This document shows, in pieces, positions 11,408 through 40,061 of a DNA stretch of 64,000 nucleotides; position 1 is the first letter of the stretch; each line of letters opens with the position of its first letter. The position numbers and the translations under genes are program-made. This stretch comes from Pontederia crassipes (Eukaryota > Streptophyta > Magnoliopsida > Commelinales > Pontederiaceae): positions 17,539,501 through 17,603,500 of the forward strand of contig CM060195.1 of the NCBI GenBank assembly GCA_030549335.1, in the 5' to 3' direction. The notes below the pieces were generated by a model. The model saw only the letters and a list, made by a program, of their open reading frames with translations, made no database searches and was not told the DNA's origin.

Positions 11408-11759
11408 TTACGGTTCAACGTGTATTTTTAGTCTATCACGTTTATCATCCACGACGAATCCAACGGGCGTCCGAATGAGGAGGTCTCATTAGGATGGGGC
11501 CCATTTTGTCCTATGGTAAATGGGCTATGCAGTACGTGTTGTTCTAACATTTATATGCTGCCACCTTATTTTTTAATTGACATGAGAAACTGAATGCACA
11601 CCCGTCAGCAGTTTAAACGAGAAAAAAAAGGAAAATATATAAATTAATAGGTTAACAACAGTTCATTATGATGCTAACGCTGGCTACAACTTTTGCAGAT
11701 AACAGTTACGTGCGTATTATACGAACTAACATATATGAAAACAACATTAGCAGAGCTCA
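11408..11759. other. Intergenic; right copy of 20-bp duplication and 3' flank of the next gene
   Basis: The right copy of ACGGTTCAACGTGTATTTTT is at 11410-11429. The rest, to 11759, lies downstream of the minus-strand gene and probably contains its 3' untranslated region. I see no other feature. Confidence 0.5.
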
Positions 11760-12284
11760 TTAATAACAACGATGGCTATGCAGCAGGTGCTGAAGCTGGC
11801 AAGAAGAAGAGTTCAGGAAATCCTCCTTCCGTGACGAGTTCTTCAAGAACTTAATGCAGTCTTCAATGGCTTCCGACTGATGAGAATCCCCGAAAGGCGC
11901 ATATCGACTCTGCGGGGTCATCATCGATATGCTTGCGGAAGTCGCCTTCGTTGATGACACCGTCGGTTGTTTGACGCTTCTCTGTCGGGGGATCGAATGC
12001 TGAATCCTGGACATGCTGGTCCTGATGCGCTGGTAGAGTCTTGCCACGGAGCAACGAGCTCTCTTGATCACAAACCTATAAGAAGAGGAGGACGAGGAAG
12101 ACGATGACGACGTCCATGAGGCGCCCGAGGAACTCTTATGAACCTGTTTCTGCGACTTCGATCTGTTACAGCAGGCTTCAAATGACCTCGTTTGGTTCTC
12201 GAATGTGAAGAAGAAGTTTGGCTTCTCATAGGCGTCGACGCTGAAGCTTGGACGTCGACTGCCGCCGTAGCTGGTCGTCGACAT
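11760..12284 (-). CDS. Small Ser-rich protein, resembles plant Josephin-like small proteins
   Basis: This is a single-exon frame of 174 codons starting at the ATG at 12284. An in-frame ATG at 12305 is an alternative start. The longer upstream extension translates a TA microsatellite as alternating Ile/Tyr and is unlikely to be protein. The N-terminus (MSTTSYGGSRRPSFSVDAYEKP) is basic and Ser-rich. A serine run sits near residues 60-70. A basic amphipathic segment follows (IKRARCSVARLYQRIRTSM). The C-terminal part has SHQSEAIEDCIKFLKNSS from residue 134, which resembles a motif I associate with small plant proteins annotated as Josephin-like. There is no catalytic Josephin domain, no signal peptide and no membrane segment. 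Function unknown; the family assignment is from memory of the motif. Confidence 0.6.
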   Translation of the reverse strand: MSTTSYGGSRRPSFSVDAYEKPNFFFTFENQTRSFEACCNRSKSQKQVHKSSSGASWTSSSSSSSSSSYRFVIKRARCSVARLYQRIRTSMSRIQHSIPRQRSVKQPTVSSTKATSASISMMTPQSRYAPFGDSHQSEAIEDCIKFLKNSSRKEDFLNSSSCQLQHLLHSHRCY

Positions 12285-12322
12285 CTTTCCGCATTCGAAT
12301 CCCATGTCGACGTCGCCATGGC

Positions 12323-12324
<2 letters not shown>

Positions 12325-12356
<32 letters not shown>
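12325..12356. repeat. (AT)16 microsatellite
   Basis: A 32-bp uninterrupted AT run, 20-40 bp upstream of the likely start codons of the minus-strand gene. It lies in that gene's 5' leader or core promoter region. Confidence 0.95.
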
Positions 12357-12358
<2 letters not shown>

Positions 12359-12503
12359 GTGTACAAGCGGAAGAAGTAAGGAATTGAAAGGTCAGACCAG
12401 GGAATTCGATCTCCAAGAAAATGAAATGGAAAAGAGGAAAGGTAAAGGAGTGATGAAGACAGTACTAGCAGCTAGAGGGGGGGAAAGGGGTTTAAAGCCT
12501 TAA

Positions 12504-13271
12504 AGGTGGTCAAAATGCCCACAGTTGGAGCTGCGAGTTATGATGTACAGGCACGCTGTTGGATGAGATCGATTGACAAATTGACTCAAGTTTGCGAGGA
12601 CTCTGGGGATCTATTTGTCTCATCAAAGTTAAGCTGGAACAAAGAATGAGATCATGAGACGTGCATGTTTGGCGGCTTGCGTAGGTTGTCATGCAGCTTG
12701 AGGAATCTCCATCCTTGAAGCAAGTAAAAAAAAAAAAAAGGAAAGGGGGAAGAAGAAAAGCGCTCGATTCATGTTTGGAAAAGATGAGAGGGTAGTTACT
12801 GCAGCAAGTGATATCAATTTAAATGATAAAAGAAAACTCAAAGAAATGTCACCTAATCAAAAGATTTGTTAGTAAGTTTATGATTATACTGAAATCTTCT
12901 TAAGGAGAAGAAAATCATGCATTAATTAGTGTGTGAGCAGGGAGCGGCTGCTCTTTTGAGGCGGTGTCATCGAGTGTTGGGTCCTTCTGCTGCCCTTTTT
13001 GTTTGGCTCATATGTTCTGTTGGTATGTATCGTCTGACAGGCAGCAGACAGACAGACAGACTACGGACAGAATAAGGATCCATGGAGCAGGCAGATGAAG
13101 ATGGGGGTTGGTGTTGGGGACAAAGGAGATGCGAGTACTTTTATTTTATGCGACTGTGTACTGTGTATGCATTATGCATCCATCGTTTTCGCCTGGCCAC
13201 GTTTAGATTTTATTACTGTATACGTGATTCATAATCCACTATAATCAATTTCCTCTTCGATAAATTTCAGA
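12504..13271. other. Intergenic, promoter side of the small gene
   Basis: No further gene is visible. It holds an A run (12726-12739) and a short GACA repeat (CAGACAGACAGAC near 13047-13060). Its left part is upstream of the minus-strand gene at 11760-12284. Confidence 0.5.
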
Positions 13272-13343
13272 GTCCTTGTAGTATAGTGGTGAGTATCCCC
13301 GCCTGTCACGCGGGAGACCTGGGTTCGATCCCCGACATTGGCG
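13272..13343 (+). tRNA. tRNA-Asp (GTC), slightly degenerate
   Basis: The 72-nt sequence has the plant tRNA-Asp layout: an A-box TAGTATAGTGG, an anticodon stem CCCGC/GCGGG with loop CTGTCAC (anticodon GTC), and a B-box GGTTCGATCC. The anticodon stem is perfect. The acceptor stem GTCCTTG against CATTGGC has two mismatches in its middle, and the T-stem has one C-A mismatch. A T-rich pol III terminator follows immediately. It could be a working gene with weak stems or a recent tRNA pseudogene. Confidence 0.82.
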
Positions 13344-13358
13344 TTGTTTTTTATTTTT
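13344..13358 (+). terminator. Pol III terminator-like T tract
   Basis: TTGTTTTTTATTTTT directly follows the tRNA 3' end. A run of six T is sufficient for RNA polymerase III termination. Confidence 0.75.
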
Positions 13359-15516
13359 CAGTTTTTCCGCTGGTCTTCTTCTCTCATGAGACGGGCCATC
13401 GACTCGGTCTACGATGACGATGCTTCTTTCGTCTACGAGATGATGAACGATGAAGCGAGCACTCTCCCGTTTTTATCTGCTTTGAGTGGCTTGATCAGTC
13501 TGGAACTTGCGCCGATGCTTTTTGTGTTGAAATGTCGATATGATTCCAAGTTTTTCCGGGGTAGTGCTGCGGTATTAGATTTTCAAAGTTAACGCATAAC
13601 AGACACCAATCGCGTAGGTGAATCTGATGGCTGCAGGTTCGGAAGGACAAATTGTTCCCACGGTTAAGGGGGCCATTCTTCTTCTTGGAACTCGAATTCT
13701 GCGGACAGTTTGTTTTCGATGTTATGTAGCATTCATCTTATGCAACCGGTTGAGAGCTATGAACAATTCGCAGGAACTCTAATTCTGGTGATAGTTGGTT
13801 TCGACTAACCAGGGCCACGATCAAATTATTTCTTGCTTGCTCAACACAATTAGCAGGAGTAAAAAGAAGGCTAGGTTCTTACTCAATCTTTGGCTAATTC
13901 GATGTTAATAGTTTGAACAAGGTTCTTACTATGCACTGTCTCAAACTTCGCATCTAATATGGATCGAATGTGATCCATCAAACTTGGTCAAGATCATAAC
14001 AAGATTGAATGTTCTGTAATCAAACATATCTATAGGCAAGCAAACAGTGCTGGAGACTTTATCGCTAATAGATCAGCTCGTGCTGATTAATTTTGGGAAG
14101 GGAATCCATCTCCGGAACCTCCTCCGACTGTTGTACTTGAACTATTCTGCTTCTTATGCCAATAGATAATTCGTGTTTTTTCAAAACAAAAAATACATAT
14201 AAAAAAATGTTATTGTGTAGTAACATGTCCTTGAGGTCTTGGAGGATCATGGATTACAGAAAAAAAAACATAAGATTGGGTTGTTCTGGAATCTGAACAA
14301 CCACCCAAAAATGGGGGTCTTCAGTAGTTGGTTTCTTCTTTGATGCATTAAAATATTTTCATTGCAGTAGTAGTGGGCTTATTGTTGTGTTTGCACATGT
14401 CAAGGCGACGAAAACGAAACTTTCATGATAGACATCATGGAAAAATCGCAACATAGATTCCGTTGTTGCGATACATTGCCAATTCTTTTGTGGATCAGTT
14501 AACGTTCTACTGCTCATCTGTTTGCCAATTCTTTTGTAGATCAAATTCACCAGTTCTGTTTGCCAATTCTTTTGTGGATCAAAATCACCAGCAGCCACTG
14601 GCAAACATGCTTTCAGTCGCCAATTTTTCGGTTGTTGCTCCTCAACGTATGTTCCAAACCCAGAATTACAGGTATAATTCACAAAAAAAAGAGAGAGAAA
14701 CACATATCTCTACACAAAATGAACCGATTAGGAAAACGAATTTACACCGGAATCCATTTTTCTATTCAGCAATCCTAAGTAATTTAAATTTCAAATCGAA
14801 ACATCTGCAATAAAAAAAGATTATTTTCATAATTTACTCTTGAGCTATTACGATTTTTCACATCTAACCTCAAACTACGACTTTATTTTTTTAAATCCTT
14901 AAATTATCGTGATTTTTTTACTTTAATCCCTCGGGCCTACATTTTCTATTACTTTTACTTTTTCTTATTTATGAAAAGACTAAATTACACCTCCCTTCAT
15001 GACACATCAAATATTACATTAGTCGCCCCCTCCAATCCGGTCCTAAAAATGAAGTGTTTCAATAATTATTTTTCTTTTTTATATTTATTGTTTGATGTGT
15101 TATTAAAAGAAGGATAATTTATTCTTTTCACAAATAAAAAAGTAAAATTAATATAAAATATAATAGAAGCGGACGGGAGAATTAAAATAAAAAAGTAACG
15201 ATAGTTTAGGGACAAAAAGTAATTAAAAATAAGTTCATAATTTAACATTAAATATGAAAAATCATAATAATTAGGATGATTTCTGAAAATAATCCATGAA
15301 AAATGTGCACTTTTATATATTTGTCCAAAATTTGTCAAGCGCCTACGAGGCTAAGACCAATGGACCAAACCAGGGCCGATCAGATGACTTTCAGTTTTTT
15401 TTACTCCAGATTATGTTTGCGAAGGCAAAGCATCTGAAATAGCAGATGGTGGTTTCATGTGCTTACATTTCCTATTTGAATAACCTCTCTATCTTTTCCA
15501 TTATTTTATCTTCCTT
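13359..15516. other. Intergenic, no recognised gene
   Basis: An 84-codon open frame at 13338-13592 overlaps the tRNA end and has no recognisable domain, so I do not call it. The right part, from about 14800, is strongly AT-rich. One triple direct repeat (14476-14582) is listed separately. Confidence 0.45.
14476..14582. repeat. Three copies of a 22-bp direct repeat
   Basis: TTGCCAATTCTTTTGTGGAT and close variants start at 14476, 14522 and 14560, with spacings 46 and 38. The core is almost identical while the spacers differ. Confidence 0.8.
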
Positions 15517-15723
15517 AGATACCTATTTCATAAACTCCGCTTATGTTTTATAGCCGGTCCCAAGCCCGGATAAAGGAGGAGAGTTGTGTTAGGCCCCGAC
15601 AGCCAGCGTAAAATCCTGTCGAATCTTATGAACATGGATCAACGAATATTGGCGTCGTATGATCCATGTAGCCGACCCCACCTAGTGGGATAAGGCTTTG
15701 TTGTTGTAGATATCTATTTCATA
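15517..15723 (+). mobile_element. 5'-truncated LINE (RTE-type) tail insertion with 16-bp TSD
   Basis: The body at 15533-15707 ends in CCTAGTGGGATAAGGCTTTG followed by TTGTTGT, the 3' terminus shared by plant RTE-like LINEs and Au-type SINEs. It is flanked by AGATACCTATTTCATA (15517-15532) and AGATATCTATTTCATA (15708-15723), a 16-bp target duplication with one difference. Only the 3' 175 bp are present, typical of incomplete reverse transcription. There is no coding potential. Confidence 0.8.
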
Positions 15724-15725
15724 CA

Positions 15726-17128
15726 CATAAAATCTATATATATATAATTCTAAGTATTCAGTGGTAGCTTTGTGAATAGTCTACATCGCTTCTTTGCTCA
15801 GCATTCCTATTTATCTTTTTTCTGAGTTTTTTAAAATTTTCATCTCATTTTTTAAGAATGTTAAACGACATGTATTAATCACCTCACTTTTTTATAAATA
15901 TTATAAATGACACGTATCAATTGCAAACGTTATAAATGACACGTTTTAGGAATATTATAAATGGCCACAATGTTATAAATGAAAAGTTTTAACATTTATG
16001 TGTATAACATTTTTCTATGCAAATCTATATATATATATATAATTCTGAGGATTCAGTGACAGCTTTGTGAATAGTCTACATCGCTTCTTTACTCAGCATT
16101 CCTATTTATCTTTTTTTGAGTTTTTTTAGAATTTTCATCTCATTTTTTAATAATTTTAAACGACATGTATTAATCACCTTATTTTTTTATGAATGTTATA
16201 AATGACATGTATTAATTGCAAATGTTATAAATGGTACGTTTTAGGAATATTATAAATGACCACAATGTTATAAATGAAAAGTTTTAACATTTATGTATAA
16301 CATTTTTTCCATGCAATATATATATATATATAATTCTGAGGATTCAGTGACAACTTTGTGAATAATCTACATCGCTTCTTTGCTCAACATTCCTATTTAT
16401 CTTTTTTCTGAGTTTTTTAGAATTTTCATCTCATTTTTTAAGAATGTTAAACGACATGTATTAATCATCTCATTTTTTTATGAATGTTATGAATGATACG
16501 TATTAATTGTAAATATTATAAATGACACGTTTTAGGAATATTATAAATATATATATATATATATAATTCTAAGGATTCAGTGACAGTTTTGTGAATAGTC
16601 TACATCGCTTCTTTGCTCAGCATTCCTATTTATCTTTTTTCTGAGTTTTTTTAGAAATTTCATCTCATTTTTTAAGAATGTTAAACGACATGTATTAATC
16701 ACCTCATTTTTTTATGAATGTTATAAATGACACGTATTAATTGTAAATGTTATAAATGACACCTTTTAGGAATATTATAAATGGCCACAATGTTATAAAT
16801 AAAAAGTTTTAACATTTATGTGTATAACATTTTTTCTATGCAATATATATATATATAATTCTGAGGATTCAATGACAGCTTTGTGAATAGTCTACATCGC
16901 TTCTTTGCTCGGCATTCCTATTTATCTTTTTTCTAAGTTTTTTAGAATTTTCATCTCATTTTTTAAGAATGTTAAACGACATGTATTAATCATCTCATTT
17001 TTTATGAATGTTATAAATGACACGTATTAATTGCAAATGTTATAAATAGCACGTTTTAGGAGTATTATAAATGGCCGCAATGTTATAAATGAAATGTTTT
17101 AACTTTTAATGTTATAACATTTTTTTCA

Positions 17129-17159
<31 letters not shown>

Positions 17160-18097
17160 ATTCTGAGGATTCAATGACAGCTTTGTGAATAGTCTACATC
17201 TTTTCTTTGCTCAGCATTCTTATTTATCTTTTTTCTGAGTTTTTTTGGATTGTCATCTCATTTTTTAAGAATGTTAAACGACATGTATTAATCACCTCAT
17301 TTTTTTTATGAATGTTATAAATGACACGTATTAATTGCAAATGTTATAAATAGCGCGTTTTAGGAATATTATAAATGGCCACAACTATATATATATAATT
17401 CTGAGTATTCAGTGGCAGTTTTGTGAATAGTCTACATCGCTTCTTTGCTCATCATTCATATTTATCTTTTTTTTGAGTTTTTTAAAATTTTCATCTCATT
17501 TTTTAAGAATGTTAAACGACATGTATTAATCACCTCATTTTTTTATGAATGTTATAAATGACACGTATTAATTGCAAATATTATAAATGACACGTTTTAG
17601 GAATATTATAAATGGCCACAATGTTATAAATGAAAAGTTTTAATATTTATGTGTATAACATTTTTTCCATGCAAATCTATATATATATAATTTCGAGAAT
17701 TCAATGACAGCTTTGTGAATAGTCTACATCGTTTCTTTGCTCAGCATTCATATTTATCTTTTTTCTGAGTTTTTTAGAATTTTCATCTCATTTTTTAAGA
17801 ATGTTAAACGACATGTATTTATCACCTCATTTTTTTATGAATGTTATAAATGACACGTATTAATTGCAAATGTTATAAATGACACGTTTTAGGAATATTA
17901 TAAATGGCCACAATGTTATAAATGAAAAGTTTTAATATTTATGTGTATAACATTTTTTTTATGCAAAATCTATATATATATAATTTGAGGATTCAGTGAC
18001 AACTTTGTGAATAGTCTATATCGCTTCTTTGCTCAGCATTACTATTTATCTTTTTTCTGAGTTTTTTAGAATTTTCATCTCATTTTTTAAGAATGTT
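15726..18097. repeat. Tandem satellite-like array, about 293/235-bp units, nine copies
   Basis: Units begin with AATTCTGAGGATTCAGTGAC or a variant, directly after a TA microsatellite. They start at about 15746, 16041, 16332, 16565, 16857, 17159, 17397, 17689 and 17982. Unit lengths are 295, 291, 233, 292, 302, 238, 292 and 293, and the last is cut at about 116 bp. Short units lack the part around ATGTTATAAATGAAAAGTTT. Inside each unit a short motif, TTATAAATGACACG or similar, recurs about four times. There is no coding frame. The order long-long-short is repeated twice, which indicates a higher-order repeat of about 820-830 bp. Confidence 0.92.
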
Positions 18098-18296
18098 AAT
18101 TCATTCATAATTGTGCCGTTTAAGTCTATGCTCCAAAGAGAAGGTAATAACTTATCTAATGACTTAGAGTTGGATATGCTAATCGAGTAAGCCAACACAA
18201 CAGTACGTTTGCTTACAGTCAGTTTTCTCAGAGAGGCGTGCTGGCTCTGCTAGTTTTTTCACTAGTTGCCAACTGCATCGAGAGGGAGTCGCGTAC
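18098..18296. other. Distal 3' region of the THIC locus
   Basis: Lies between the satellite array and the distal acceptor-like site. Its sequence is non-repetitive. If long THIC transcripts exist, their 3' ends probably lie here. I see no clear coding feature. Confidence 0.4.
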
Positions 18297-18323
18297 CTGC
18301 GGCCAAGAAACAAGGAAATAAAA
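18297..18323 (-). promoter_or_regulatory. Acceptor-like splice site after distal TPP aptamer
   Basis: On the minus strand, TTTATTTCCTTGTTTCTTGG is followed by CCGCAG, with the CAG at 18299-18297. The pyrimidine-rich run and CAG form a good 3' splice-site match. The distance from the aptamer end (18324) to the CAG end is 27 nt, the same as for the proximal copy. Confidence 0.5.
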
Positions 18324-18440
18324 CACAGCACACTTCCTACGCAGGTATTATCCTGGCTCAGGTTCAAAGGGACTATCTCAGCCTGCATCAATCCTCCCCA
18401 GAGTTTGGAGAGAGACTGAGCAAGCACCCCTGGTGCTGCT
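18324..18440 (-). promoter_or_regulatory. TPP riboswitch, distal copy (copy B)
   Basis: This TPP-binding aptamer of the thi-box type lies on the minus strand, downstream of THIC. Conserved blocks in order are GCACCAGGGGTGCTTG, GGCTGAGATAGTCCC, TTTGAACCTGA, CAGGATAATACCTG and GCGTAGG. P1 is closed by GTGCTG (from 18438) against CAGCAC (18331-18326). P3 is CTCTCC paired with GGGGAG. The loop CAGG-ATAATA-CCTG keeps the usual TAAT. One deviation from the proximal copy is GCGTAGGAAG instead of GCGTAGGGAG. Plant TPP aptamers control splicing and 3' end processing of THIC RNA; this copy is about 300 nt farther downstream than the other. Confidence 0.9.
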
Positions 18441-18714
18441 TACAGTCAGTTTCTTGTCAAAAACAAATAAATAAAAGCACATCTACCACATCTGAATGTC
18501 ATTCCTCAGTGGTAATATCAAAATAAGGGAAAATCATGTGCGTGTTATGGAACTAGAAGAGGTTAATCCAGATCATAAACATGGATCATCACTTTCTGAG
18601 GATTGCCATAAAAAACTTGATTAAGATAAAGGAATACTTCCCATGATTAAGGAGCATCTTTCGGATCGAAAGTCAATGCATGTGTATTATGTGGGATCAA
18701 AAGCCAATGCATCC
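18441..18714. other. Spacer between the two TPP aptamers
   Basis: About 275 bp without coding or repeat signal. On the minus strand it would be 3' UTR or intron of THIC. Confidence 0.5.
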
Positions 18715-18741
18715 CTGAGCAAGCACAAAAGGAAAAGAAAA
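18715..18741 (-). promoter_or_regulatory. Acceptor-like splice site after proximal TPP aptamer
   Basis: On the minus strand, TTCTTTTCTTTTCCTTTTGT runs into GCTTGCTCAG, with the CAG at 18717-18715. It is pyrimidine-rich and ends in CAG-G, a strong 3' splice-site match. It ends 27 nt after the aptamer boundary at 18742. Confidence 0.55.
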
Positions 18742-18868
18742 GAATTGCACACTCCCTACGCAGGCATTGTCCTGGTCAGGTTCAAAGGGACTTTCTCAGC
18801 CAGTCCTACCTCGATCCATGGCTAAATTACCACGGATGAGACAGACAGGCACCCCTGGTGCAATTTCT
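18742..18868 (-). promoter_or_regulatory. TPP riboswitch, proximal copy (copy A)
   Basis: This minus-strand thi-box aptamer starts about 510 nt after the 5' splice site that follows the THIC stop codon. Blocks in order are TTGCACCAGGGGTGCC, GGCTGAGAAAGTCCC, TTTGAACCTGA, CAGGACAATGCCTG and GCGTAGGGAG. P1 is long (AAATTGCAC against GTGCAATT). P3 is ATCCGTGG paired with CCATGGAT, eight pairs including one G-U. In the P5 loop the usual TAAT reads CAAT. In Arabidopsis the ligand-free aptamer masks a 5' splice site, and TPP binding frees it, giving long unstable transcripts and lower THIC expression. The same feedback is expected here. Confidence 0.93.
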
Positions 18869-19379
18869 TATTAATCAAACAGCCCCAAAACGTTGATAGA
18901 AGAACAGGGTCTTTATCAAAATACACATCTAAAGAGAACAAAATATGTTTTTTTTATTGACGACTGAACATATTCTTACCAAACATCAACTAATATCCAA
19001 CAATATGAAAAGTTCGCCCAAAGCATTTTGATGTAGCCATATATTGCGTCATTGCTAGATCATATATTGATGTTCTTCTGTGTCTGTAACAAAATGGCAT
19101 CACGTTCAGAAATTATGAAATGTAAAACCGCAGTGACAGGTTAAAATAAAAACACACAAACAACTAAAGAATGAAATGTTGCACAATTGTGTCTGCATTT
19201 ATTTTAGCCTTTTGAATGCCTATCTGCTCTTGAGGCTACATAAAAAAGGATATTATTTCTGCTGAGGTAACAGATTAGAGTAACAGTTGTGGTTGTAGTC
19301 TGACGTTTGATGTACAAAAACGAAATATGTACCATGTCAAGCTAAAGGAACATGACAGATTGTGAGAAAAACCATTTAC
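18869..19379 (-). other. THIC 3' UTR / 3' intron region
   Basis: A GT splice donor (AG-GTAAATGG) lies at 19379, two bases after the TGA stop (19384-19382). This matches the plant THIC arrangement in which an intron begins right after the stop codon. The rest is AT-rich with no other coding signal. Confidence 0.7.
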
Positions 19380-19381
19380 CT

Positions 19382-22839
<3,458 letters not shown>

Positions 22840-22942
22840 CTGAGCAGATTGACGACGGAAGGTGGAGGAGAATGAGGAGATATTAGGAAGCAAGGCAGTG
22901 GAGCGCCTCGTCGAGTGGTCGGTCGACAGATACTTATAAAGG
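22840..22942 (-). promoter_or_regulatory. THIC core promoter and 5' UTR exon
   Basis: TTTATAAGTA at 22940-22931 on the minus strand is a TATA-box match. A leader exon of roughly 60-70 nt would then run to the splice donor at 22840/22839. The leader is CT-rich (CTCCTCATTCTCCTCCACC), common for plant 5' UTRs. Confidence 0.55.
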
Positions 22943-23073
22943 AGGGGGGGCGTGCTCTTCTCGTCATCTCGACCTCCCTCGTCGTCGCATGCTCGGCGTG
23001 GACGCTACGATTCGGATCAAGAGGCCGAGATGCGATGTGGTGGCGATGACGATGATAGATGGTCTTTATGGAA

Positions 23074-23082
23074 AAAATATCT
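23074..23082 (+). promoter_or_regulatory. Evening element, proximal
   Basis: AAAATATCT, an exact evening element, lies about 135 bp upstream of the THIC TATA box. Evening elements bind CCA1/LHY-type clock Myb proteins, and Arabidopsis THIC is reported to be clock-controlled through its promoter. Confidence 0.55.
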
Positions 23083-23379
23083 CCTCGACAAATATCGGCA
23101 AATCGATTAAATAAAAGAAATGGGAAAAATTCTTGGATGGAGCACACTTTACTGCACTTTCCTACGCTTTCATGATATTATTATTACTACTATTACTAAT
23201 AAATAATAATAAATACTAAAACAATAGGCGCAAATTGCATGCGCCGGCCCAATGGATATGCATCATTTCCTTCTAAGAGCCAATATTTTTTCTTTTCGAT
23301 TATTTCATGGATCGACTGAAAATATTTTTAGAAGAAAGTAACAATAAAAAAAATATTATGATTGCAATTGTGCCAAGAG

Positions 23380-23388
23380 AGATATTTT
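23380..23388 (-). promoter_or_regulatory. Evening element, distal (reverse orientation)
   Basis: AGATATTTT on the plus strand reads AAAATATCT on the minus strand, the strand of THIC. It is about 440 bp upstream of the TATA box and 190 bp from the copia insertion. Confidence 0.4.
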
Positions 23389-23584
23389 GGAATGGGATAG
23401 CGACGGATAGAGGTCCAGTTGACGTCGGCGAGTGGCGACCACAGAATTCTTATTATTGTAACAGATGCCATGCTTCGGATAATTGACAATCTTTTTTTGG
23501 AGTTTGCAGCAGAGCTAAATGAGTCCATCAGATGATTTTTCATGATTTAGCACACATTTTTGCCATCCAAATAGAAAACAAATA

Positions 23585-24049
23585 TGTTAATAATGTCTTG
23601 AATCTGAACTCAATTGATCTCTCTACATAGTAAGACGCTTCAGCAGAATTTCCCTACGGAGGTCTCGCTGACTGGTCAGCGAGCTTGTGGGGGGTCAAAG
23701 GGGGATCCAAAGGGATCCCCCTGTGTCCCGGGGGGGAACACCTGCGGGGGTTGCAAGGGGGCGGAGCCCCCTGAGCGAAAATTTTTAAGAGTATTCTGAT
23801 GTGATTCGGATTTGATTTATTTCCTTATCACGAGATATGTGTCCTATTTTCAGAGGATTTATTTAGAGTCCCAGTCCATATATAATTCCTACAATTTGTC
23901 AAAGGGAGTGCCTATATAAACTCCCTAGGGGTCTAAACAGAGACCCATCCTTGTAATCATCGTTATTTCATAACAAAGAGCCGCCGCCGTTTTTCCTCTT
24001 CGTGTTCTTCTGTATTTCGTGCGATCTCTCTCTCCCTCTTTTCGTAACA
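23585..24049 (+). repeat. Copia 5' LTR (465 bp)
   Basis: Starts TGTTAATAATG and ends TTCGTAACA. A TATA-like CCTATATAAACTCCC (near 23910) marks the promoter. It contains a G-rich section at about 23690-23775, with several runs of five to seven G, that is absent from the 3' LTR. Confidence 0.93.
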
Positions 24050-38169: not shown

Positions 38170-40061
38170 AAAGCTAACAAGGTCTTTTAACTTCGGGGGG
38201 CAATCTATTTTGAATTACGACACTGGCTTCAGCAGTTAGTGCAACTGTTTCATTTTCTTGTATCCTCCTCTTTTTTGATAAGATGTCTTTGAGAAATTTT
38301 GCATATGCAGGCATTTCCTGTATGGCTTCCACAAAGGGTACATTAATATAGAGTTTCTTCAAAATTTCTATAAACTTGCCAAACTGTTGATCTTGTCGAG
38401 ATTTCTCGAGGGCTTTAGGGAATGGTATTTGAGCAGAGTAGCTGGAATGTTCTTCAGTAAGCTGTTGCTTGGATTTATTTTGTTCATTCGATGTAACCTC
38501 TGGTTGAACCATTTGGTCTTGTTCACCAATCCCTCCATTGCCTTCAGTCAAAACCTTTTATCTAGTTCTTTTGATGTTATCTATTGTTTTCCCACTTCTT
38601 AAGGTTACAACTTGAACCTGTTCCTTTGGATTTTTCTCTGGTTGGCCCGATAGAATTCCTAGTTGTCTTGAAGAAGATGCAGCCTGTTGAACTATTTGAG
38701 GCTCCAACATTTTATTATGAATGGAGAGACTTTCAATTTTCTCAAATATTTTCTGCATTAAAGTGTCTTGTTTCGACATATACTTTTCCATCATTACTTC
38801 TAGCTTGTTCAAGGAAGATGACCCTTGATCCGGCGAAGAGTTTTGAAGTTGAGCTCTTTGATTGAATCTGTTTTGCCAAGTGGGAACTTGGGTTTGTTGA
38901 GGATTGTCTCTGTAAAAAAACTTTGGATTGTTCTTCCATCCAGGATTGAAAGTGTTAGGATACGGATCATTGGTAGATGGATAAGGACCTAACACATTTG
39001 CCTGATTGTGATGTCCTTGCTGCTTTAATAGTTCACAATGCACGAAAATGTGATCAGGTGAACCACATATCTCGCAACATCTTGCTATTATATTAACAGT
39101 AGGAGTAGCTTCATTGAGTCCCAGTCTACTAATTTCCTTTTGAAACTATGTACTCCACCTTAGAAGAAAAATCCTCACGATCAAATCGTGTTTGAGTTAA
39201 TGCGACCGGCTCATTGGACCTTGAGTGAGCTAGAAAATGTTGATTCCTTGCTATTTCTTCTATAAGTTGATAGGCCTCATTTACATTTTTATTTATAAAT
39301 ATGCCATATGCAGCATTATGAAGTGCCATTTTTGAAGTATAATTAAGTCCATTGTGGAAAGATTGCACTAAGATCCATTTGCTTAAGCCATGATGAGGAC
39401 ACGACCTTAGCAATGTCTTAAACCTTTGTCAGGCTTCATACAACATTTCCTAATCTTTTTGAATAAAGCCAATGAATTGATTTCTGATTTTGATGGTCTT
39501 ACTTGGAGGAAAATATTCTGACAAGAAGGCTTTTACCAGTTGCTCTCAAGTAGTTAATTCCCGGGGTTCCAGTGACTGTAGCCATTGCTTGGCTTTACCT
39601 TTTAACGAGAAAGAGAAGACTCTTAATCTCAATGCCTCTGATGATACTCCATTCAACTTGGTTGTCTCGCATATTTTCAGAAAGTCTTTAAGATGTTGAT
39701 TTGGGTCTTTATCTGAATTCCCTCCAAATTGGTTCTGTTGGATTGTGGAAATTAAAGACGATTTTAACTCGAAATTGTTGGCTTGAATAGCAGGCTTCAA
39801 AATCGCTGACTCCAGTCCATCTGCGGTGGGAGTATAGAGTTCTTCTAATGACGGGACTGGTGGTCATGGTTGAAGTGGCTCTTATTGTTGAGCCATCATT
39901 TCTGCTTCCAAATCAGAATTCTCCTCGAGATCTATGGATTGAGTGCTGCTTGTACCTTCAAGAGAGGATGTTCTATTCTTATATTCTCGCACCCTTCTTT
40001 TAAAAGTTCGATCAATCTTAGGGTCTAGTTCAAGCAATTATCCGCGAATGTTTCTAAGCAT
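38170..40061 (-). pseudogene. E2 gag, broken
   Basis: It starts at the ATG at 40061 on the minus strand; the first codons include a stop, followed by LLELDPKIDRTFKRR. Core blocks are QANNFELKSSLISTIQQNQF, DPNQHLKDFLKICETTKLNG and FSFSLKGKAKQWLQSLEPRE. The part AHSRSNEPVALTQTRFDRED lies at 39413-39129. A zinc knuckle CEICGSPDHIFVHC is near 39075. The C-terminal linker (SKQDTLMQKIFEKIESLSIH) and FGKFIEILKKLYINVPFVEA, EMPAYAKFLKDILSKKRRIQ follow to 38174. Unlike E1, the middle part is retained. Confidence 0.87.

Follow-up and report, generated by a model that had tools for sequence, protein, structure and literature searches.

Two TPP aptamers downstream of THIC in Pontederia crassipes suggest a two-step vitamin B1 feedback switch

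The window, that is the whole 64,000-nt stretch of Pontederia crassipes DNA that was analysed, carries on its minus strand an intron-split gene for THIC, the chloroplastic phosphomethylpyrimidine synthase (Table 1). The product of 20116-21015 (minus strand) was matched by the Arabidopsis phosphomethylpyrimidine synthase of the PDB with an E value of 2.4e-177. With the N-terminal 140 residues as the query, 58 THICs were found in a protein search, with identities of 43-70%; flowering plants supplied the top matches, and some gymnosperms, a lycophyte, algae and unnamed metagenome proteins were also among them. The coding region was read from a three-frame translation and the exon joints were placed by eye. 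The last exon is open in frame, within an ORF at 19382-20053 that ends at the stop codon. Elsewhere in the window we observed a tRNA-Asp gene (13272-13343, plus strand) and a plant snoR71 (39385-39491, plus strand).

Two TPP aptamers lie 3' of the THIC stop codon in the orientation of the gene, hereafter copy 1 (proximal) and copy 2 (distal). An earlier note on this DNA had described both as complete, and had proposed a covariance search as a check. This search, performed on the window with the Rfam model RF00059, rejected neither copy: both matches are full length and score above the curated cut-off of 54.3 bits (Table 1). By the boundaries drawn in that note (18868-18742 and 18440-18324) the gap between them is 301 nt, consistent with its figure of about 300 nt. 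None of 200 dinucleotide shuffles was as stable as the native letters for either copy (z of -3.5 for copy 1 and -3.4 for copy 2); for a longer copy-2 stretch, 18324-18454, z was -2.9 and 3 of 200 shuffles were as stable. The helices P1-P5 of both copies fit the Rfam alignment, P1 consisting of 8 consecutive pairs in copy 1 and 7 in copy 2. Ligand-free fold models are weak evidence, and are given here as such. In its lowest-energy model, copy 1 has the conserved CTGAGA unpaired, in line with expectation. In that of copy 2 (-50.5 kcal/mol) most of the CTGAGA is paired with an upstream CTCAG, and a native-like fold appears only as the centroid (-46.9 kcal/mol).

Next to bacterial aptamers, copy 2 has two peculiarities. 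The bacterial set came from a pattern scan of genome contigs, prokaryotic records only, in the best 80 of 590 thiC loci. The pattern counted 50 aptamers in 49 loci over all 80 (off-pattern aptamers are uncounted), and Rfam run on 40 of the 80 gave 28 TPP matches in 27 loci. The P4-P5 arm, which contacts the pyrophosphate of TPP according to an excerpt of PMC6414600, measures 16 nt between ACCTG and CG in copy 1. This is the usual length, found in 43 of the 50 bacterial aptamers; the others have 15 (4), 14 (1) or 13 (2) nt. The arm of copy 2 is 17 nt long, with one extra base, as in none of the 50; this is variation in length and touches no motif that Rfam requires. Copy 2 also reads AGGAA instead of AGGGA. 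We rejected this as a fatal change, because 6 of the 50 bacterial aptamers share AGGAA. A pattern scan of viral contigs found no outgroup plants.

We compared the two copies with each other. With the P2-P3 segment left out, the cores agree at 64 of 68 bases, copy 2 having one inserted base in addition, and two outer P1 pairs differ by compensatory changes (T-A to A-T and T-A to C-G). For the P2-P3 segments, which are 47 and 40 nt long, 12% of shuffles gave an equally good alignment. The near-identical core, the compensatory P1 pairs and P3 arms that cannot be aligned beyond chance together indicate that the aptamers are homologous and that the duplication looks old, with both folds kept. The proposal that aptamer and acceptor had been duplicated as one module was not supported by this comparison, as no clear homology could be shown outside the core: equally good alignments were obtained with 26% of shuffles for the links between aptamer and acceptor-like site, 26% for the upstream 60 nt and 3.6% for the downstream 80 nt, the last a weak signal in T-rich sequence.

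That proposal had rested on a link of the same 27 nt from each aptamer to a pyrimidine-rich tract and a CAG. The CAGs at 18715 and 18297 do follow such tracts. By pyrimidine content (0.85 and 0.75) they rank first and second of the 41 YAG triplets in the 1,284-nt region 19383-18100, a measure that was picked after the CAGs had been seen. Their near-equal spacing also stands; for two random starts, the distances to the next CAG agreed within 1 nt, at 15-45 nt, in 1.5% of 20,000 draws. The exact value of 27, on the other hand, depends on where the aptamer boundary is drawn, and counting from the homologous end of AGTGTGC (3' strand of P1) gives 32 and 31 nt. As the equality is boundary-dependent and the homology of links and flanks is not above chance, save weakly downstream, equal links were rejected as proof of a module duplication.

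Splice sites were scored by a weight matrix of consensus values, and the 22 best acceptors were listed. The CAGs 18715 and 18297 rank fifth and sixth among these. The CAG of copy 2 abuts GTACGC and makes a donor-like AG/GT junction (donor score 4.11 at 18296). Both copies have a further candidate inside the aptamer. An excerpt of PMC5853225 places the published plant THIC acceptor such that 7 bp of the aptamer 5' end are left in the intron; we read this acceptor as GCACCAG/GGGTGC, and the sequence is kept in both copies. Each copy therefore has two candidate acceptors, one in-aptamer and one downstream. Since the in-aptamer sites score low in comparison (Table 1), the downstream CAGs stay live candidates and may be used.

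The best donor of the 3' region stands immediately after the THIC stop and is the predicted start of the usual intron at this place. A lower-ranking one, at 18979, is the candidate regulated donor, and a candidate poly(A) signal lies between it and copy 1 (Table 1). At this donor, UUUGGUAAG could pair at 8 of 9 positions with CUGACCAGG of the copy-1 P4-P5 arm. We did not accept this pairing as support for the known mechanism; it is weak because at least 8 pairs were reached by 15 of 507 upstream 9-mers.

Short repeats were also observed around these sites. The 12-mer GTGCTTGCTCAG is present at 18726-18715 (minus strand), at the acceptor-like site after copy 1, and at 18427-18416 (minus strand), in the copy-2 5' strand, possibly by chance, as 50 of 500 resamples hold a repeat of at least 12. 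A 19-nt direct repeat (89%) occupies 18663-18681 and 18694-18712, 31 nt start to start, just past the copy-1 acceptor-like site.

Table 1. Features of the THIC gene and its 3' region (positions in the window)
Feature	Position	Strand	Details
THIC (phosphomethylpyrimidine synthase, chloroplastic) coding region, intron-split	19382..21784	-	ATG 21784, stop TGA 19384-19382
Predicted start of the usual intron after the plant THIC stop, donor GAAG/GTAAAT	19378..19379	-	two bases past the stop codon; top donor score of the 3' region (weight matrix)
Candidate regulated donor TTTG/GTAAGAAT, upstream of copy 1	18978..18979	-	rank 5 among donors (weight matrix)
AATAAA, candidate poly(A) signal, between donor 18979 and copy 1	18953..18958	-	sequence
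TPP aptamer copy 1 (proximal)	18735..18866	-	RF00059, 66.3 bits, model positions 1-105 of 105
In-aptamer acceptor candidate of copy 1, GCACCAG/GGGTGC	18855..18857	-	fits published position (excerpt of PMC5853225); score 1.54
Acceptor-like CAG after copy 1	18715..18717	-	32 nt past AGTGTGC; pyrimidine content 0.85; acceptor score 3.17
Direct repeat, 16 nt, exact, upstream arm (5' of copy 2)	18437..18452	-	repeat search
Donor-like GACT/GTAAGC just 5' of copy 2	18442..18443	-	donor score 0.71; can pair with copy-2 5' strand
TPP aptamer copy 2 (distal)	18316..18441	-	RF00059, 60.6 bits, model positions 1-105 of 105
In-aptamer acceptor candidate of copy 2, GCACCAG/GGGTGC	18430..18432	-	sequence; absent from the list of the 22 best acceptors
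Acceptor-like CAG after copy 2	18297..18299	-	31 nt past AGTGTGC; pyrimidine content 0.75; acceptor score 3.11
Direct repeat, 16 nt, exact, downstream arm	18210..18225	-	repeat search; interrupted by a 9-base insertion at the second THIC locus

We searched the genome (1.13 Gb, 43 contigs) with the THIC last exon and with Rfam. The exon search found two THIC loci, and the four TPP matches found by Rfam are distributed two at each. Of 26,776 first-look candidates 49 were scored, and these included no weaker TPP match up to an E value of 10. The second locus, on contig C14, carries the same aptamer pair and is collinear with 11410-23585 of the window, barring insertions and a deletion, over the 33 kb compared. 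The same 33 kb has a further match at 3-2185 of the window and scattered matches elsewhere. The C14 THIC has an in-frame deletion, with the counterpart of window 20446-21690 (residues 32-326 of 644) missing at C14 46480346-46480440, and from its sequence is probably not a working enzyme. Both aptamers are kept there despite the deletion.

A 2.6-kb insertion 3' of copy 2 in the window is absent at C14. Also absent there is an array at 15730-18099, in which some nine diverged units follow one another, mostly at intervals of 291-302 nt and twice at 233-238 nt; it ends about 200 nt 3' of copy 2 in the sense of the gene. A twister type-P1 match at 15528-15587 (plus strand; 56 bits, under the cut-off of 67.2) is held by an element that we take to be SINE-like and that ends near GTTGTTGTAG. 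Genome-wide, all 62 candidates scored (68,074 first-look candidates) matched the twister family, 12 of them over the cut-off, and thus a repeat family may carry twister ribozymes.

On either side of the block that holds the aptamers (18868-18297), the flanks differ between the two loci at 39 of 703 bases. This divergence indicates that the aptamer pair is older than the split of the two THIC loci. An assembly artefact is also unlikely, because the same pair stands at two diverged loci. The block itself has changed more slowly, at 9 of 572 bases against 31.7 expected at the flank rate (one-sided Fisher test against the flanks, p of 1e-4), which is similar to the rate in coding stretches (13 of 997). 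Copy 1 (18868-18742) and its link are identical at the two loci (0 of 127 and 0 of 27 bases; 8.5 changes expected in the 154), and this includes the P3 arm, usually the variable part. For copy 2 (18440-18324) with its link the effect is borderline, with 3 of 117 and 0 of 27 bases changed against 8.0 expected in the 144 (binomial p of 0.04, one-sided Fisher p of 0.053). One of these three changes is a mismatch in the P3 stem of the C14 model. The lowest-energy folds of copy 2 also differ (-47.5 kcal/mol at C14 against -50.5 kcal/mol in the window), the P2-P3 arm being more native-like at C14. The conservation is not specific to the aptamers, as the stretch between them is slow too (6 of 274 bases against 15.2 expected). 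The slow divergence of the block fits constraint, and could also be due to gene conversion or uneven mutation.

The arrangement has the same gene, side of the gene and aptamer class as the plant THIC 3' UTR TPP riboswitch of Arabidopsis, tomato, cassava and oil palm. Also shared are the predicted intron right after the stop and, by our reading of an excerpt of PMC5853225, the sequence GCACCAG/GGG of the candidate in-aptamer acceptor. It differs in having two aptamers where that riboswitch has one, and the pyrimidine-rich acceptor-like CAG 31-32 nt after each aptamer is extra to the plant riboswitch as described. The earlier note was correct that tandem TPP riboswitches are known in bacteria (PMC9481103). 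Bacterial tandem riboswitches likewise have a pair of complete sensors for the same ligand within a single regulatory region, and a pseudo-cooperative response has been proposed as the reason. They act, however, on transcription or translation, whereas the region here follows the gene on its 3' side and would control splicing and the choice of 3' end.

Among eukaryotes, an excerpt of PMC5882874 describes two TPP aptamers in 5' UTR introns of NMT1 of the oomycete Saprolegnia, for which a duplication was proposed. That case also has two TPP aptamers in one eukaryotic thiamine-synthesis gene. The enzyme and the location in 5' UTR introns are different, and the Saprolegnia copies are, by the same excerpt, very similar and cluster together, whereas the P3 arms here have diverged. 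Among the literature matches listed, none described tandem TPP riboswitches in a plant, and a literature text search with plant aptamer letters gave no match. In the excerpted part of an oil palm study (PMC7390266), RiboSW, one of four web tools, gave the largest number of motifs in plant ThiC genes; it is possible that a second motif in such genes is already tabulated there.

We put the probability at about one half that the plant THIC 3' riboswitch is present here in a tandem form, with copy 1 as the ordinary sensor and copy 2 as a further TPP-dependent control of splicing. Most likely, copy 1 works as a normal riboswitch, and copy 2 also senses TPP but acts only on transcripts with a long 3' UTR. 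The mechanism of copy 1 is known from other plants: in an excerpt of PMC10226581, the aptamer masks a donor, and at high TPP the early poly(A) site is spliced out. Copy 1 stands in the published layout of a donor right after the stop, a second donor, an AATAAA and an aptamer with a candidate in-aptamer acceptor (excerpts of PMC5853225 and PMC10226581). By analogy, the donor upstream of copy 1 would be blocked at low TPP; cleavage and polyadenylation would then take place ahead of copy 1, and the resulting mRNA would be short and stable and lack both aptamers. At high TPP, copy 1 would bind TPP, the intron with the poly(A) site would be removed and the RNA would extend. Copy 2 would be present only in these long RNAs. 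There it may make the acceptors 18430 and/or 18297 available to that upstream donor or to donor 18443 close by, and a second TPP binding event might send the RNA to a longer, unstable 3' end. We infer that copy 2 is transcribed, binds TPP and affects splicing; we lean slightly towards its being functional, and the way in which it would act is our inference.

The tandem form is consistent with the Rfam scores of both copies above the cut-off, with the stability of each beyond 200 shuffles and with the presence of the pair at both THIC loci. The P1 compensation beside diverged P2-P3 segments, the slow block 18868-18297 and the fact that the two downstream CAGs are the most pyrimidine-rich YAGs also argue for it. 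Against it stand the extra P4-P5 base, the non-native lowest-energy fold and the borderline conservation of copy 2 on its own, together with the low scores of the in-aptamer acceptors and the weak donor-aptamer pairing at copy 1. In addition, diatom TPP aptamers are present without thiamine control, according to the title of PMC9544697.

The features of copy 2 that count against the tandem form would be expected if it were a relic, with copy 1 alone regulating THIC and copy 2 a decaying duplicate in a rarely used long 3' UTR or beyond the transcript. Besides the extra base, the non-native model and the borderline conservation, copy 2 scores lower in Rfam (60.6 against 66.3 bits), and one of its three changes between the loci is the P3-stem mismatch that goes with the weaker C14 energy. 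However, its core and P1 are intact, with compensatory pairs and a score over the cut-off, although the similarity of the P3 arms has been erased; this is unexpected for a relic that has been free for so long, and we regard this explanation as unlikely. Copy 2 could also be a self-contained aptamer intron of 147 nt, from donor 18443 to CAG 18297; without TPP the donor would be trapped by pairing with the 5' strand of the aptamer itself, and TPP would free it. When the upstream 16 nt were shuffled 1,000 times, 0.6% of the shuffles did as well as the hairpin, GACTGTAAGCAGCACC / GGTGCTTGCTCAGTC, whereas the same test at copy 1 gave 61%; its letters are unchanged at C14, and the 65-nt fold has a z of -3.6. 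It was, however, noticed after the fact with five donor regions tried, and its duplex energy of -20.9 kcal/mol is unremarkable, within about one sd of the background (mean -15.9, sd 4.8). Pairing with copy 2 is stronger for the 18297 region (-24.5), and further donor regions equal the hairpin in strength. Moreover, a 131-nt ligand-free model favours the aptamer fold over the hairpin, and the donor scores only 0.71 because it has a T at -1. Such an intron is thus improbable. Hardly more doubtful is a two-stage TPP gate made from splicing, in which copy 1 would set the escape from the early poly(A) site and copy 2, itself an intron with its donor masked by its own 5' strand and, as in recursive splice sites, an AG/GT end, would decide what becomes of the RNA that has escaped; the response to vitamin B1 would then be steeper or have two thresholds.

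We consider least probable that copy 2 is the older sensor and copy 1 was added, or that an insertion brought in copy 2 from a THIC paralogue since lost. What suggests an insertion is the exact 16-nt direct repeat that brackets copy 2 and its 3' flank; when the region was resampled 500 times by a Markov model, no exact repeat was as long. The repeat could be a target-site duplication or what is left of a tandem duplication. The 70 nt past the copy-2 CAG (18296-18227, minus strand) also have 54% GC against 33-36% in three stretches around. On the other side, copy 1 occupies the canonical place after the stop, a young repeat is hard to square with the old divergence of the aptamers, and a genome search, which can miss matches, revealed no other source of the bracketed stretch (two candidates scored). 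The stretch 18296-18227 likewise had no match outside the THIC loci in the genome search. An origin of copy 2 as part of a transposable element was considered separately and is unsupported, because the only matches of 18200-18730, in a search that can miss some, were the two THIC loci themselves and copy 1 at both, the latter by way of the aptamer core.

The tandem form of the plant riboswitch is the reading that we favour. Two TPP aptamers after a plant THIC gene, where one is usually described, are apparently undescribed in plants among the literature matches listed, and the arrangement suggests a two-step vitamin B1 feedback switch. It is plausible that two sensors on one RNA give a steeper TPP response or alternative 3' ends. 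Two sensors retained in one plant gene would offer a natural test of whether tandem sensors sharpen a response in eukaryotes, as is thought for bacteria. The tandem also bears on how splicing-based switches can be stacked, and is relevant to the engineering of vitamin B1 content.
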